NCBI GenBank assembly: GCA_028066245.1
Contig: JALCBR010000039.1
Span: forward strand, 1-39,794
Source: Pirellulales bacterium
GTDB lineage: Bacteria; Planctomycetota; Planctomycetia; Pirellulales; S012-138
Length of the DNA stretch: 39,794 nucleotides
Direction: 5' to 3'
Shown: piece after piece, positions 4,981 through 9,843 of the stretch
Layout of the letters: each line of letters starts with the position of its first letter
How positions within the stretch are numbered: the first letter of the stretch is position 1
The notes under the pieces: model-generated
Told to the model about the DNA's origin: nothing
Databases searched by the model: none
What the model saw: only the letters and a program-made list of their open reading frames with translations
Translations under genes and position numbers: made by a program

Positions 4981-7437
4981 CTACCGCCGCAGGTTGAGGA
5001 GCTCGTCCAACAGCCGCTGGGCGGCGTCGATGACTCGCGTATTACCTCGATATTGCGTTGACGCAAGGATGAGATCGATCAGGTTTGAGCCGACATCCGT
5101 GTTGGAAAGTTCAACGGCACCTGCAATCAACCGTCCGACGCCTTGCTCGCCAGGCTGCCCCTGAATCGCCAGACCAGAGTTGACGCCGCTGGCGTACAAG
5201 TTTTCCCCCTTCTGTTCCAGGCCGGCAGGGTTGGCGAACCGCGCCAAAATCACCTGGCCCAGATCTCGCGTAACACCGTTGGAGAAAACTCCACGGATTC
5301 CTCCGTCTTCACCAATGATGAAGCTGGTCAGAGTTCCCGGAGGCGATCCATCCTGGCGTGAAGCGGCCAGGCCACTGGAATCTGTCGCCAAGCCAGAAAG
5401 CTTCGTGAAGTCCAGTTCAAATTCGAGTGGTGAAGTGCTGGAAACTGTATCGCGATCCACGGAAACCGTGGACTCGGTGACATTGATGACGTTGCCTTCG
5501 CCATCAAATGTGATCAGGCCTGTCCCGACAGCGATCTCGGCATCATTGCCGATCGATTGGTTGTCCGGTGAATCGGCAAACCAGCGATATGTGGTCGTGT
5601 TCCCGTCTCGTGATTCCTGAACAGCTGTCAAGCGGATGCTAACGGGGATCCCCAACGAATCGTAGACAATGAAGTCGGCAACTGCGGTTTCTCCCGTGGC
5701 GGCCTGGATTTCTCCGAATGGCAAATCAACGGTTGTGACCTGACCTGAATTCCCCCGGAACGAAAGTCCCGAAAGCCCAATGTCGAGCGAGTTGTCAACA
5801 CCGTTGTTCCCGACGAACTGAATTCGTCCGCTGGTGACGCTTCCGCCAGGGTCAACTGTGCCGGTTGTTGTCAGCGAGTCGGGAATGGGATTGGTCGGAT
5901 CTGTGTCCTCTTGGATGCCCATGGCATCTTCCATGAAGTTGACTAGATCTTGCACGGTACTGGTTGCCGTGACGGCGAACTCCTGCGTCCCCAGTGTGCG
6001 GCCACCTTTTCTCGCCGTAAAGCTCAGTGTCCCCTCCTCGGCAAACAGGTTTTCGTACGTGTCCGTCCCTGTCCGCTTCAACACATCCAGCAACAGAGTT
6101 GATGAGAAGTTGATTTGCGGACCATCAAAGTCAATCTCAGGATTCGTGGCGAGTGTCGTGTCATCCAATCCGTCAATGAACGTGGTTTTCCCAACCGCTG
6201 CTGGAGTAAGTTCTGTAACTAAATGATATTCCGTGTCGTCGGTCGCCAGCGTGCGATAGATATTGATCTGATCGTATGGTGCAGGGATATCCGCCGCGCC
6301 AGGTAGATCTGTCAGGCGGACGCGCGTGCTACCGGTGACGGTCACCTGGCCCAAGATTGGCGAGGGGCGACTGGGAGCGACGGCGCCCAGGCTGCTGGAA
6401 TAGCTAATTCGATAGCTGTATGTACGGCTTCCCGGCGGCTGCGCAGGATCAAACAAGGTGGCGTTTCCGGCGATTGACGCTTGCGAGGCAGCATCGGTAA
6501 AGGCCGTGGTTACCATCTCGTTGAATTCCGTCAGGAATTGAAACGAGCCACCATCAAGAGAGCGGTAGATGCGGCGACCGACATACTCACCCGGTAAGCC
6601 TCCAGGATCTGTGGGGATGGCCGAAAGATCAATGGCGTCATTCGCAGCCACAGCCAGCCCCGTCGATGCAGTGGACGGAGGACTTTCATTACCCTGGGCA
6701 TCGATGAAGACGACGCGGTATTCAAAAGTGCCAGCTTCCAAAGCGCCAGCACCGGCATTGATGGCTGTTGTCGGCGGCGCCCCTGGGCCTCCAACCGCTA
6801 ATGGTACTGCGCCAAAATCTGTGTCCGGCGAAGGGACCGCCGCGTCACCAAGCACTTCGGACTGGATGATTGAGGCTGAGTCAGCAAGGGTGCCGTTGGG
6901 GCGGAGCGTCCCTTCCAAGATCACTTCATTGGTCGGATTGGCGACTGCCGCAGCACCCAACGGAATGCTCAACGGGACAAGGACCGTTGACTGGACGTTG
7001 AACTGGTCGTCGATGCCGAATCCGAGCAATCGATTTCCGTTGACATCGACAAGCTCGTTTTCAGCGTTGGTCTTGAAGATTCCGTTGCGGCTGTAGAGTT
7101 GCTCGCCTGCTCCGCCTTGGACGACGAAAAATCCGTCACCCTGAATAGCCAGGTCAGATGGATTCGTACTGACCTCGATGGTGCCCTGCGTGAAGTCCGG
7201 TTTGATCTCCGCGACCTTGGCTCCCAGTCCGATCTGGCGAGGATTGGTACCACCGCTTCCGGCGGTTGGGCCAGAGCCCAAGGACTGTGTCTGCACGAAC
7301 TGCGTGGCAAAGATGGCCTCTGACGATTTGAAACCAACCGTGCTGGCATTAGCGACGTTGTTACCGACGACATCGATTGTCGTTTCTGCTGCGGTCAGAC
7401 CGGTCAGTGCAGTACTGAGTGCTGATGCAAGACCCAT
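4981..7437 (-). CDS. flgE: Flagellar hook protein FlgE, enlarged
   Basis: Structural protein of the hook, the universal joint between rod and filament, exported by the flagellar type III system. The N-terminus MGLASALSTALTG with VVGNNVANASTVGFK and the C-terminus GVELSNTDV-like segment SNTDVGSNLIDLILASTQY are the rod/hook helices; DLAIQGDGFFVV is the conserved D1 entry. At 818 residues it is about twice the length of E. coli FlgE. Part of the extra length is a pair of similar modules at about residues 225-315 and 335-425, each with an FEYRV/YSYRI strand and an IYR motif, resembling fibronectin type III folds. The ATG at 7437 is chosen for its perfect GGAGG ribosome site; an upstream in-frame start would add 14 residues. 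A 204-bp gap separates it from flgD, the largest inside the operon; I saw no sigma-54 element there. Confidence 0.93.
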   Translation of the reverse strand: MGLASALSTALTGLTAAETTIDVVGNNVANASTVGFKSSEAIFATQFVQTQSLGSGPTAGSGGTNPRQIGLGAKVAEIKPDFTQGTIEVSTNPSDLAIQGDGFFVVQGGAGEQLYSRNGIFKTNAENELVDVNGNRLLGFGIDDQFNVQSTVLVPLSIPLGAAAVANPTNEVILEGTLRPNGTLADSASIIQSEVLGDAAVPSPDTDFGAVPLAVGGPGAPPTTAINAGAGALEAGTFEYRVVFIDAQGNESPPSTASTGLAVAANDAIDLSAIPTDPGGLPGEYVGRRIYRSLDGGSFQFLTEFNEMVTTAFTDAASQASIAGNATLFDPAQPPGSRTYSYRISYSSSLGAVAPSRPSPILGQVTVTGSTRVRLTDLPGAADIPAPYDQINIYRTLATDDTEYHLVTELTPAAVGKTTFIDGLDDTTLATNPEIDFDGPQINFSSTLLLDVLKRTGTDTYENLFAEEGTLSFTARKGGRTLGTQEFAVTATSTVQDLVNFMEDAMGIQEDTDPTNPIPDSLTTTGTVDPGGSVTSGRIQFVGNNGVDNSLDIGLSGLSFRGNSGQVTTVDLPFGEIQAATGETAVADFIVYDSLGIPVSIRLTAVQESRDGNTTTYRWFADSPDNQSIGNDAEIAVGTGLITFDGEGNVINVTESTVSVDRDTVSSTSPLEFELDFTKLSGLATDSSGLAASRQDGSPPGTLTSFIIGEDGGIRGVFSNGVTRDLGQVILARFANPAGLEQKGENLYASGVNSGLAIQGQPGEQGVGRLIAGAVELSNTDVGSNLIDLILASTQYRGNTRVIDAAQRLLDELLNLRR

Positions 7438-7641: not shown

Positions 7642-8088
7642 CTAGTCCTCACTGGCAGGCAGAATTTCGCGGATATTGTTCAACCTGGCCTGCTGTTCGC
7701 CGACATGCAACGTGACGTCGCTGCCATTGATGGTGACGCGAGAGACAACTCCTTGCACATTAGCGCCATCATCTGCCAACGCGGTGATCTCCTTGCCAAT
7801 CAGCGCTGAGCCGCTGTTGAGGTTTTGTCCCAACGCTAACGCATCCAGTGCGTCGCCGAGCTGGGTGGTGGCTTCGATTTCTTGAATCGTGGCAATCTGT
7901 GCCAGGAACTCGTCGTTCTCCAGTGGATTGAGAGGGTCCTGATTCTGCAGTTCCGCAATCATCAACTGGAAAAAATCATCCAGCTCCAGGCCTTGCAGCG
8001 CGGCCGGATCACCGGACGATCCCGCAGGCTGAGCAACGCCTGCCGTCGTTTGTCCAGCGTTTGAGGTTGTTGTGGTTGTTACTTCCAT
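7642..8088 (-). CDS. flgD: Hook assembly scaffold FlgD
   Basis: Hook capping protein needed for FlgE polymerisation. The product is 148 residues, short for the family. It has a Ser/Thr/Gly-rich N-terminal export region (1-30), then the conserved core LELDDFFQLMIAELQNQDPLNPLENDEFLAQIATIQEIE at about 34-72 (given here as the region containing QNQDPLNPLENDEF), and a C-terminal segment with LIGKEITAL and a short beta-rich part. The C-terminal Ig-like/Tudor domains of larger FlgD proteins appear to be minimal or absent. The ATG has GGAGAAG just upstream. It follows fliK by 54 bp and precedes flgE, the typical order. Confidence 0.93.
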   Translation of the reverse strand: MEVTTTTTSNAGQTTAGVAQPAGSSGDPAALQGLELDDFFQLMIAELQNQDPLNPLENDEFLAQIATIQEIEATTQLGDALDALALGQNLNSGSALIGKEITALADDGANVQGVVSRVTINGSDVTLHVGEQQARLNNIREILPASED

Positions 8089-8142: not shown

Positions 8143-9843
8143 TCAAGCTACGAGGTCAAGTTCGCTATCAGAGTGGGACGCTGACTTGGATTTGCGGAGT
8201 TGATCGACATCCGATTCACTTTCGGATGTCGAAGTTGCTGCAGACGTGCTTGCAGCGGTTGAATCCTCAGAGTCTCTCTCTCGCTCTCCGGCCGACCCTT
8301 CACGTGAAGAGGGTTGATCATTGACGTCAATGTCAAAGGTCTCGATGCGTATGTTCTGCTCCGCTAGTCGCTCCCGTAGTTGGCCGAGGTTGTCTAGCAG
8401 AATGGTCTTGGCGACTGTGGTTTCCGTCTCGACTCGAGCAACGACAGCTCCCTCTTTGAGAACAACCTCAAGCCTCATCGCTCCGAGTTCTGGAGGGCTG
8501 AGACGCAGTTTCAAAACGCCGCCCCGCTCCTGTGCAAACTCGAAAGCTTTGGCAACACGATTGATGAATCGTGATGTTTGCAATGAAGTAAGTGAACCGG
8601 CAGATTGCTCCGTTGAACGTGTGCCTTGCAATGTCTCGTTGCCCTTCGTCGTAGGTGCGACCCCTGCGGAATCAACTTCGGTGACAGGACTTGTCGGTGA
8701 AGACTTGCTGTTTGCGGCCGAATCAGAAACCGAGGCCTCGCCAGGCGCGGCGGCGAGTGGAGATTCTCGCTGATTGACGAGCGAAGCTTCAGTGGTTGCT
8801 GCTAGCGACTCAGAGCTGTCCGTGGCCGCCGCGTTTGCGGTCACCTGTGGCGGCATCGCATGACCGGGTTTGGGTAGAGCCGAAACTCGTCCCCCTGCTT
8901 TGGCTGGCTTCGCCGGTGAGTCGTGTTCTTGTTTTTCGTTTCGAGAGGAGGGCTCGTGATCAACCGTGGATTCCTCTATGCCGTTTCGTCGCTGCTCGAT
9001 GGGTGAAGAGGCTGCGTTTGCGTCGGAATATTTTCCAGGCTTGCTTGCCTGCTTACTTTCAGAATGGTTCGACAGCGGATCCGGTTGATTTGCTGTCTTG
9101 GTCTCTTGGTCTTCACCTTTGTTGCCTGTCTGCCTACCGTCTTGCGTCACAGCAGGCTGTAGCTTGGCGGCGTCACCATCGGAAGGGACTTTCCCGTTTG
9201 CTTCGTCGATCGTTCGCGGAGCTGTTTCATCCGCTATGATTTTCTGGCTGGCGTTTCCGGTGCCGTGTTCTGTTTCTCGCGATTGTTTTCCTGCCGAAGT
9301 CACTTCGCCTTGACCAGGTCTCGATTGTTCGACACCGGCATTCTTCCCCTCTGAGGTTGGGGATGTTAGATCACCCGTCAGGGATTTGTCCGCTTGCTTG
9401 CCCTGTTTTGGATCGACTGCCTCGAGTGTCGTGTCGGTCAGGGGATTTGCATTCGTGGCTGCATCGTCTGGCGCAGTCACCAAGTTGGATGCAGTTTCAT
9501 CTACCAAGGTTGTCTCGATAGCAGCCTCACTTGTCTCCTTTGAATCCGTGGGAGCGTCCTGCGTGTCTTGATCGTCGTTCCCGGTTGCCCCAGACGTTTG
9601 GTCAGAATCCGAGGGTGTTTCAGATCCCTCGGTTCTCTGAGCAGGCTCGATCTCGTTATCTGGTTCCCGCCCAGAGGGATTGTTCTCTTGTCTCCGCGCC
9701 GACGGGCTTTCCTGGGGAGCCCGAAGGTGTTCTTGGAATACACCCGAGGCAATCTGCGGATCGCAGTTGCAACCGCCGGTGATGAATGACGACGAGGCCA
9801 GATTGGCGATCGTTTTTTCTGTGGAGAAGTTGAGTTCAGCCAT
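8143..9843 (-). CDS. fliK: Flagellar hook-length control protein FliK
   Basis: Secreted molecular ruler that measures the hook and switches export specificity. The 566-residue protein has a long, low-complexity N-terminal and middle region (about 1-420) rich in Ser, Thr, Glu, Asp, Gln and Lys, as expected for the extended ruler. The C-terminal Flg_hook domain at about 430-520 contains LKLRLSPPELGAMRLEV followed by NIRIETFDIDV. A polar tail ends the protein. Hook domain sequence is the diagnostic part; the rest is recognised by composition and position. The ATG has GGGG 6 nt upstream. The gene begins 9 bp after the YlxF-like gene ends, so they are translationally close. Confidence 0.92.
   Translation of the reverse strand: MAELNFSTEKTIANLASSSFITGGCNCDPQIASGVFQEHLRAPQESPSARRQENNPSGREPDNEIEPAQRTEGSETPSDSDQTSGATGNDDQDTQDAPTDSKETSEAAIETTLVDETASNLVTAPDDAATNANPLTDTTLEAVDPKQGKQADKSLTGDLTSPTSEGKNAGVEQSRPGQGEVTSAGKQSRETEHGTGNASQKIIADETAPRTIDEANGKVPSDGDAAKLQPAVTQDGRQTGNKGEDQETKTANQPDPLSNHSESKQASKPGKYSDANAASSPIEQRRNGIEESTVDHEPSSRNEKQEHDSPAKPAKAGGRVSALPKPGHAMPPQVTANAAATDSSESLAATTEASLVNQRESPLAAAPGEASVSDSAANSKSSPTSPVTEVDSAGVAPTTKGNETLQGTRSTEQSAGSLTSLQTSRFINRVAKAFEFAQERGGVLKLRLSPPELGAMRLEVVLKEGAVVARVETETTVAKTILLDNLGQLRERLAEQNIRIETFDIDVNDQPSSREGSAGERERDSEDSTAASTSAATSTSESESDVDQLRKSKSASHSDSELDLVA

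Follow-up and report, generated by a model that had tools for sequence, protein, structure and literature searches.

Hook proteins and virion modules in described systems

Among described flagellar hooks, the closest to the one reported here is that of Campylobacter jejuni, whose hook protein FlgE (PDB 5JXL, 5AZ4) has 851 residues and a two-segment domain D3 with a further domain, D4, inserted, the two making up outer rings of the hook (PMC5069557, PMC5097172). This hook is 280 Å wide compared with 180 Å in Salmonella, and deletion of D3-D4 results in flagellar stubs in over 90% of cells (PMC5069557, PMC5097172). In 2016, extra outer hook domains were reported solely from Campylobacter and related bacteria, where they strengthen the hook (PMC5097172). 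Immunoglobulin-like (Ig-like) domains are best compared with those of phages, in which they occur in high copy on exposed surfaces, have been speculated to bind surface molecules and are thought to help adsorption (PMC9022992). In the muzzle protein gp44 of crAss001, immunoglobulin-like domain 1 spans residues 163-292 and is inserted between propeller blades (PMC10172136).

Here we describe a Pirellulales hook protein that carries two tandem modules of this phage kind. Among the papers listed on planctomycete or Pirellulales FlgE and on FlgE with fibronectin-III (FN3) or Ig-like domains, none gives an account of such modules in a hook, as judged by titles and the openings of abstracts. The Pirellulales hook is a separate case of an enlarged hook, with a recognizable building block. 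The window, i.e., the whole stretch of DNA that was analyzed, comprises 39,794 nucleotides of contig JALCBR010000039.1 from a Pirellulales bacterium, and those of its features that are discussed below lie on the minus strand.

An ordinary hook core with an insertion in D3

The flgE gene (4981..7437) reads from an ATG at 7437 to a stop at 4981 and encodes 818 amino acids, as the initial annotation had it; this is about double the E. coli protein, and the Salmonella-type FlgE proteins in the PDB have 402-403 residues. Four Pfam families score above cut-off (Flg_bb_rod, LlgE_F_G_D1, FlgE_D2, and Flg_bbr_C), covering the terminal rod/hook domains and D2, and the FlgE models of NCBIfam reach E 6e-80, yet stay under their own curated cut-offs. 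The genome has a single match to the FlgE D2/C-terminal profile, and flgE adjoins flgD. The ends of the protein and D2 are of the ordinary hook-protein type. The N-terminal D0/D1 core (residues 1-165; 6943..7437) is identified by Pfam and PDB FlgE matches and, across 50 two-module proteins, averages 64% identity in pairwise comparison, while the C-terminal D1/D0 core (residues 701-818; 4984..5337) is placed by Pfam, PDB FlgE matches, and conservation. The second segment of D2 (residues ~583-700; 5338..5691) coincides with Pfam FlgE_D2 at 574-697 and with a structural match to solved FlgE D2 domains.

D3 is likewise in two segments. The first (residues ~185-203; 6829..6885, boundary approximate) is defined by the model and by structural matches that span both segments, and the second (residues ~447-580; 5698..6099) has a profile that is present too in the module-less hooks of other planctomycetes. 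Alignment with such module-less FlgE proteins sets residues ~204-446 (6100..6828) apart as a single additional block within a loop of D3. The hooks of the sister order (L148-L150; 562-569 aa) have a related D3 and neither block nor module, and FlgE of several other planctomycetes likewise combines a related D3 with absence of the module. As in C. jejuni FlgE, the extra domains form one continuous segment within a two-segment D3, judging from the alignment and the model. The modules gave no sequence match to C. jejuni FlgE, D4 included, and the structural alignments reported do not single out D4; in those parts of the C. jejuni reports on which we draw, D4 is described neither as a tandem of one module nor as variable in copy number. 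Caulobacter crescentus FlgE (5AY6) differs in having no Ig-like tandem, and its D3 has been described as a half-barrel of beta-strands that short helices and loops complete.

Since the insertion lies in D3, a peripheral part of FlgE, the modules probably lie at the hook's outer surface, which agrees with the location first proposed for them. We place them by D2/D3 homology, as the D0/D1 ends of the full-length model are poor (pLDDT mostly below 50 in residues 1-163 and 729-809). Large hooks also occur for other reasons: many of those outside the order across the phylum are long, with frames of up to 1191 aa, and the hooks of 736-1187 aa seen in other planctomycete families (L142-L147, L156-L158) have other outer domains and not this module.

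A tandem repeat of one module

Within the insertion, one module of ~105 aa is present in two tandem copies, copy 1 at residues ~218-324 (6466..6786) and copy 2 at residues ~325-436 (6130..6465), each delimited by profile comparison, conservation, and the model. Searching with the whole protein returned 23 loci, comprising 22 planctomycete relatives and a weak Bacillus match (L026), and profiles of the two copies were built from the window FlgE and the 22 full-length-like relatives (L004-L025). The copy-1 and copy-2 profiles from these 23 sequences align over 88 columns with an hhalign probability of 99.4 and an E of 7.4e-22, whereas control comparisons of either copy with D3 or D2 gave E 0.036-0.11 and probabilities of at most 1.4. 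The two copies in the window protein are 24% identical, and their Smith-Waterman score of 66 was reached by none of 2000 shuffles (mean 29.6, sd 5.2). The view that this region holds two copies of one module is thus upheld; the outcome that would have refuted it, a region folded as plain D2/D3 with no internal repeat, is not what the profile comparison and the model show.

The motifs by which the repeat was originally recognized, [FY]-x-YR[VI], IYR, and T-F-[TI]-D, also hold at their core among 44 modules, in which the best-conserved positions (Y in YxYR, YR in IYR, and D in FTD) are invariant or nearly so. Mean pairwise identity is 38.0% for copy 2 and 33.0% for copy 1, as against 55-65% for the hook core. 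The span of 5655-6770 originally assigned to the repeats needs correction, however, as the modules occupy ~6130-6786 and its lower end also takes in the latter half of D3 and the first part of D2.

Fold and family of the module

An AlphaFold model of residues 218-436 contains two confidently predicted beta-sandwiches (mean pLDDT 93.4, pTM 0.81), both copies being all-beta save one short helix, and the same region has a pLDDT of about 90 in the full-length model. The close relatives of these modules, by sequence profile and predicted fold, are the immunoglobulin-like modules of phage virions. PHROG 511 ("internal virion protein") matches FlgE at residues 214-328 with E 2.1e-13 and 24 of 44 single modules with a best E of 2.4e-11. 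Against the PDB, a profile of the 44 modules matches SPO1 Gp6.1 (9VEL) at E 2.2e-5, a virion-associated phage protein (8JOV) at E 5.7e-5, and two major capsid proteins at E 0.007. Aligned by VIA-align, the module model has as its top row the SPO1 capsid chain 9VEL_B (Z 9.9, rmsd 2.5 over 102 residues), and it also matches the crAss001 muzzle chain 7QOL_P (Z 9.4, rmsd 2.6 over 103 residues). The muzzle stretch matched via 7QOK, residues 168-287, falls inside immunoglobulin-like domain 1. BFVD yielded 29 viral models at E ≤ 0.001, many of them aligned over a length sufficient for both copies. SPO1 Gp6.1 and PHROG 511 accordingly share a sequence profile with the hook modules, and SPO1 Gp6.1 and the crAss001 muzzle share the predicted fold. 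The muzzle domain is likewise inserted within another domain of a repetitive assembly (PMC10172136). Unlike in phages, the carrier here is a hook subunit and not a capsid or tail protein.

Sequence identity between the module and the phage structures is 16-24% over about 100 residues. Foldseek with the module model found no PDB match at E ≤ 0.001, and the kinship in fold rests on VIA-align, BFVD, and their agreement with the sequence profile. A tblastn search of phage records with copy 1 returned nothing at E ≤ 0.01, so no close phage source is known, and Pfam offered no convincing family for the module in either the whole FlgE or single modules. An alpha-latrotoxin domain also matches copy 1 (6466-6786; Z 8.1, rmsd 3.1 over 97 residues). 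We set this match aside (Z 7.2-8.1), as it perhaps reflects only a common arrangement; the VIA-align rows that follow it have Z 4.5 and lower and are unrelated chains.

The initial annotation had called the repeats fibronectin-III-like, and of this description the two beta-sandwich copies stand while the FN3 identity is not supported. FN3 models gave no match at E ≤ 10 to whole FlgE, and none at E ≤ 1 either to the 44 single modules or to 21 segments cut in a shifted register, that of a would-be canonical FN3 order. In this shifted frame (IYR ... FTD ... YxYR ... PS) the tandem presumably resembles the motif order of bacterial FN3 domains; the segments mainly picked up pieces of the phage proteins already matched. 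Solved chains that contain FN3 score no higher than a Z of about 3-4 against the module model, compared with 9.9 and 9.4 for the phage chains. With the virion matches strong and the FN3 chains weak, we prefer the name "Ig-like phage-virion module" and drop the FN3 label, which sequence supports in neither register.

Distribution in the Pirellulales and beyond

In a sample of 296 genomes of the order, the module was matched in 160 and FlgE in 144, and in 136 of the 144 the FlgE match was strong (E ≤ 1e-75). The module was found in 133 of these 136, and the three exceptions (G322, G327, G349) have truncated genes with FlgE frames of only 189-392 aa. The module in the hook is an order-wide trait and no peculiarity of the window genome, which has only two module matches, both in flgE. 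A further 27 genomes of the order match the module without a strong FlgE, so the module must reside in other proteins too. Among 294 genomes sampled across the phylum, the module was matched in 11, five of which belong to the window's order, and the matches in the other six do not coincide with the FlgE places found there. In some Pirellulales (L032 and L042 of G274; G512, G522), open frames of ~4000-5500 aa contain the module. In one genome (L068, G405), flgE lies in two frames of 569 and 256 aa, from a frameshift or an assembly error.

The remaining 8 of the 144 genomes have weak FlgE matches in frames of 549-586 aa, at E 4e-32 to 6e-26 as against 1e-75 or better. The module is absent from the seven of these proteins inspected in full, from the eighth (L081), and from L076, which is of the same kind. 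All nine members of this distant lineage (L075-L077, L079-L082, L094, L100), about 547 aa long and 546-551 aa where full-length, thus lack the module. We considered these short hooks as module losses and rejected this, as both E value and tree assign them to a distant FlgE lineage, perhaps a second type of flagellum in some Pirellulales.

Copy number and history of the insertion

Among 98 distinct FlgE proteins, a set obtained in part through module matches so that its counts are not frequencies, 51 have two modules, 15 three, three one, and 29 none; nine of the 29 belong to the short, distant lineage and the remaining twenty to other planctomycetes. Blastopirellula marina is a three-module species and Adhaeretor mobilis a two-module one. 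On a 96-row tree of the hook core, the four copy-number states need 8 changes, with 4 for the three-copy state, of which well-supported branches require 3 or more, and 2 for the one-copy state. Scored with copy-1 and copy-2 profiles derived from the two-module hooks, modules 1 and 2 of all 15 three-module hooks are of the copy-1 type and the last is of the copy-2 type, and the lone module of all three one-module hooks scores as copy 2. As the last module of the three and the sole module of the one are both of the copy-2 type, copy 2 is the constant element, present in 69 of 69 module-bearing proteins of the lineage. By these scores and the tree, copy 1 has been duplicated or lost in several lineages, and copy 2 is retained throughout.

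In the best tree, which carries long-branch warnings, the module-less sister order is nested inside the module-bearing rows. The AU test does not reject a single clade of module-bearing FlgE (p 0.207), and the insertion may go back to one gain or to a gain plus a loss.

A related module in the hook cap

Directly upstream of flgE in the window lies flgD (7642..8088), which encodes a hook cap protein of 148 aa without a module, recognized by the Pfam FlgD N-terminal region at E 2.8e-15. Adjoining flgD is a long, low-complexity ORF (8143-9843, minus strand) with a conserved-looking C-terminus, which we take to be probably the hook-length control protein FliK.

In the family Lacipirellulaceae, which includes Adhaeretor mobilis, 38 of the 39 genomes listed with a match have three module matches. 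In all 17 genomes chosen from this three-match set, a module lies in the C-terminal region of FlgD, and it is absent from 19 FlgD proteins of other Pirellulales loci. The FlgD proteins in question (L025:4029-4847 and L182-L198) have a module that resembles FlgE copy 1. The FlgD modules form a single group, the copy-1 profile scores above the copy-2 profile in 17 of 17, and their mean identity is 28.4% to copy 1 of the same family as against 26.1% to other copy 1 modules. These comparisons suggest that the FlgD module derived from FlgE copy 1. The C-terminal part of canonical FlgD has been described as a tudor-FN3 hybrid (PMC8595650). Lacipirellulaceae FlgD resembles it in having a module in the C-terminal region, however, this module matches the FlgE module profile, and the sole Pfam match at E ≤ 1 in these proteins is the FlgD N-terminal region.

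What the modules may do

We lean toward the view that the two phage-type Ig-like modules clad and stiffen the hook as D3 and D4 do in Campylobacter. The D0-D1-D2 core is ordinary, the D3 is common to other planctomycetes, and the two tandem modules sit in one D3 loop. As D3 is the outer domain, each subunit would carry its modules outward, and in the assembled hook the modules would make up the outermost layer. By analogy with Campylobacter, they would most likely thicken the hook and add subunit-subunit contacts, giving it more stiffness and resistance to breakage. Copy 2 would be the fixed part of the layer and copy 1 the variable part; the one- and three-copy hooks show that copy 1 is dispensable and that the shell need not be of constant thickness. 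The lower identity of the modules (33-38%) than of the core (55-65%) fits an exposed surface and requires no specific contacts.

The main rival takes the modules for a recognition layer on display, which binds glycans or surfaces and aids cell attachment, since Ig-like domains of phages have been proposed to aid adsorption. Their relatives are virion surface modules, exposed and speculated to bind surface molecules (PMC9022992), their number varies, they are less conserved than the core, and the module recurs in the very long open frames of some relatives. That virtually all FlgE proteins of the lineage have them, however, speaks more for a structural role than for a particular ligand, no binding site was identified, and we regard this reading as rather unlikely. 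Less probable again is that they are a variable outer decoration that the hook tolerates, or a coat for evasion that hides its conserved core from phages, predators, or proteases, and that they serve neither mechanics nor binding. Copy 1 has been gained and lost repeatedly on the FlgE tree, both copies are poorly conserved, and for the surface-exposed D3/D4 of C. jejuni selection for variation was once proposed (PMC5097172), but copy 2 was never found lost and the motif positions are strongly conserved. That the modules are true FN3 domains, drifted past recognition or circularly permuted, is very improbable, since beyond a beta-sandwich fold neither register matches FN3 models, FN3 chains stay at the Z quoted, the shifted register yields chiefly pieces of the same phage matches, and single phage copies hold the unshifted motif order.

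Meaning for the Pirellulales hook

A modular scaffold, in which a phage-type Ig module entered the hook gene once, copy 2 became a permanent part of the outer shell, copy 1 expands and contracts and so tunes thickness or surface, and a module of this kind also entered the neighboring flgD in Lacipirellulaceae, is an idea we put forward tentatively and with some doubt. Should it be true, cap and hook would be clad alike in the Lacipirellulaceae. One-, two-, and three-copy hooks, together with the module-less sister order, make hook diameter, stiffness, and motility comparable by module number, and the finding links a surface module of phage particles with a bacterial motility organelle.
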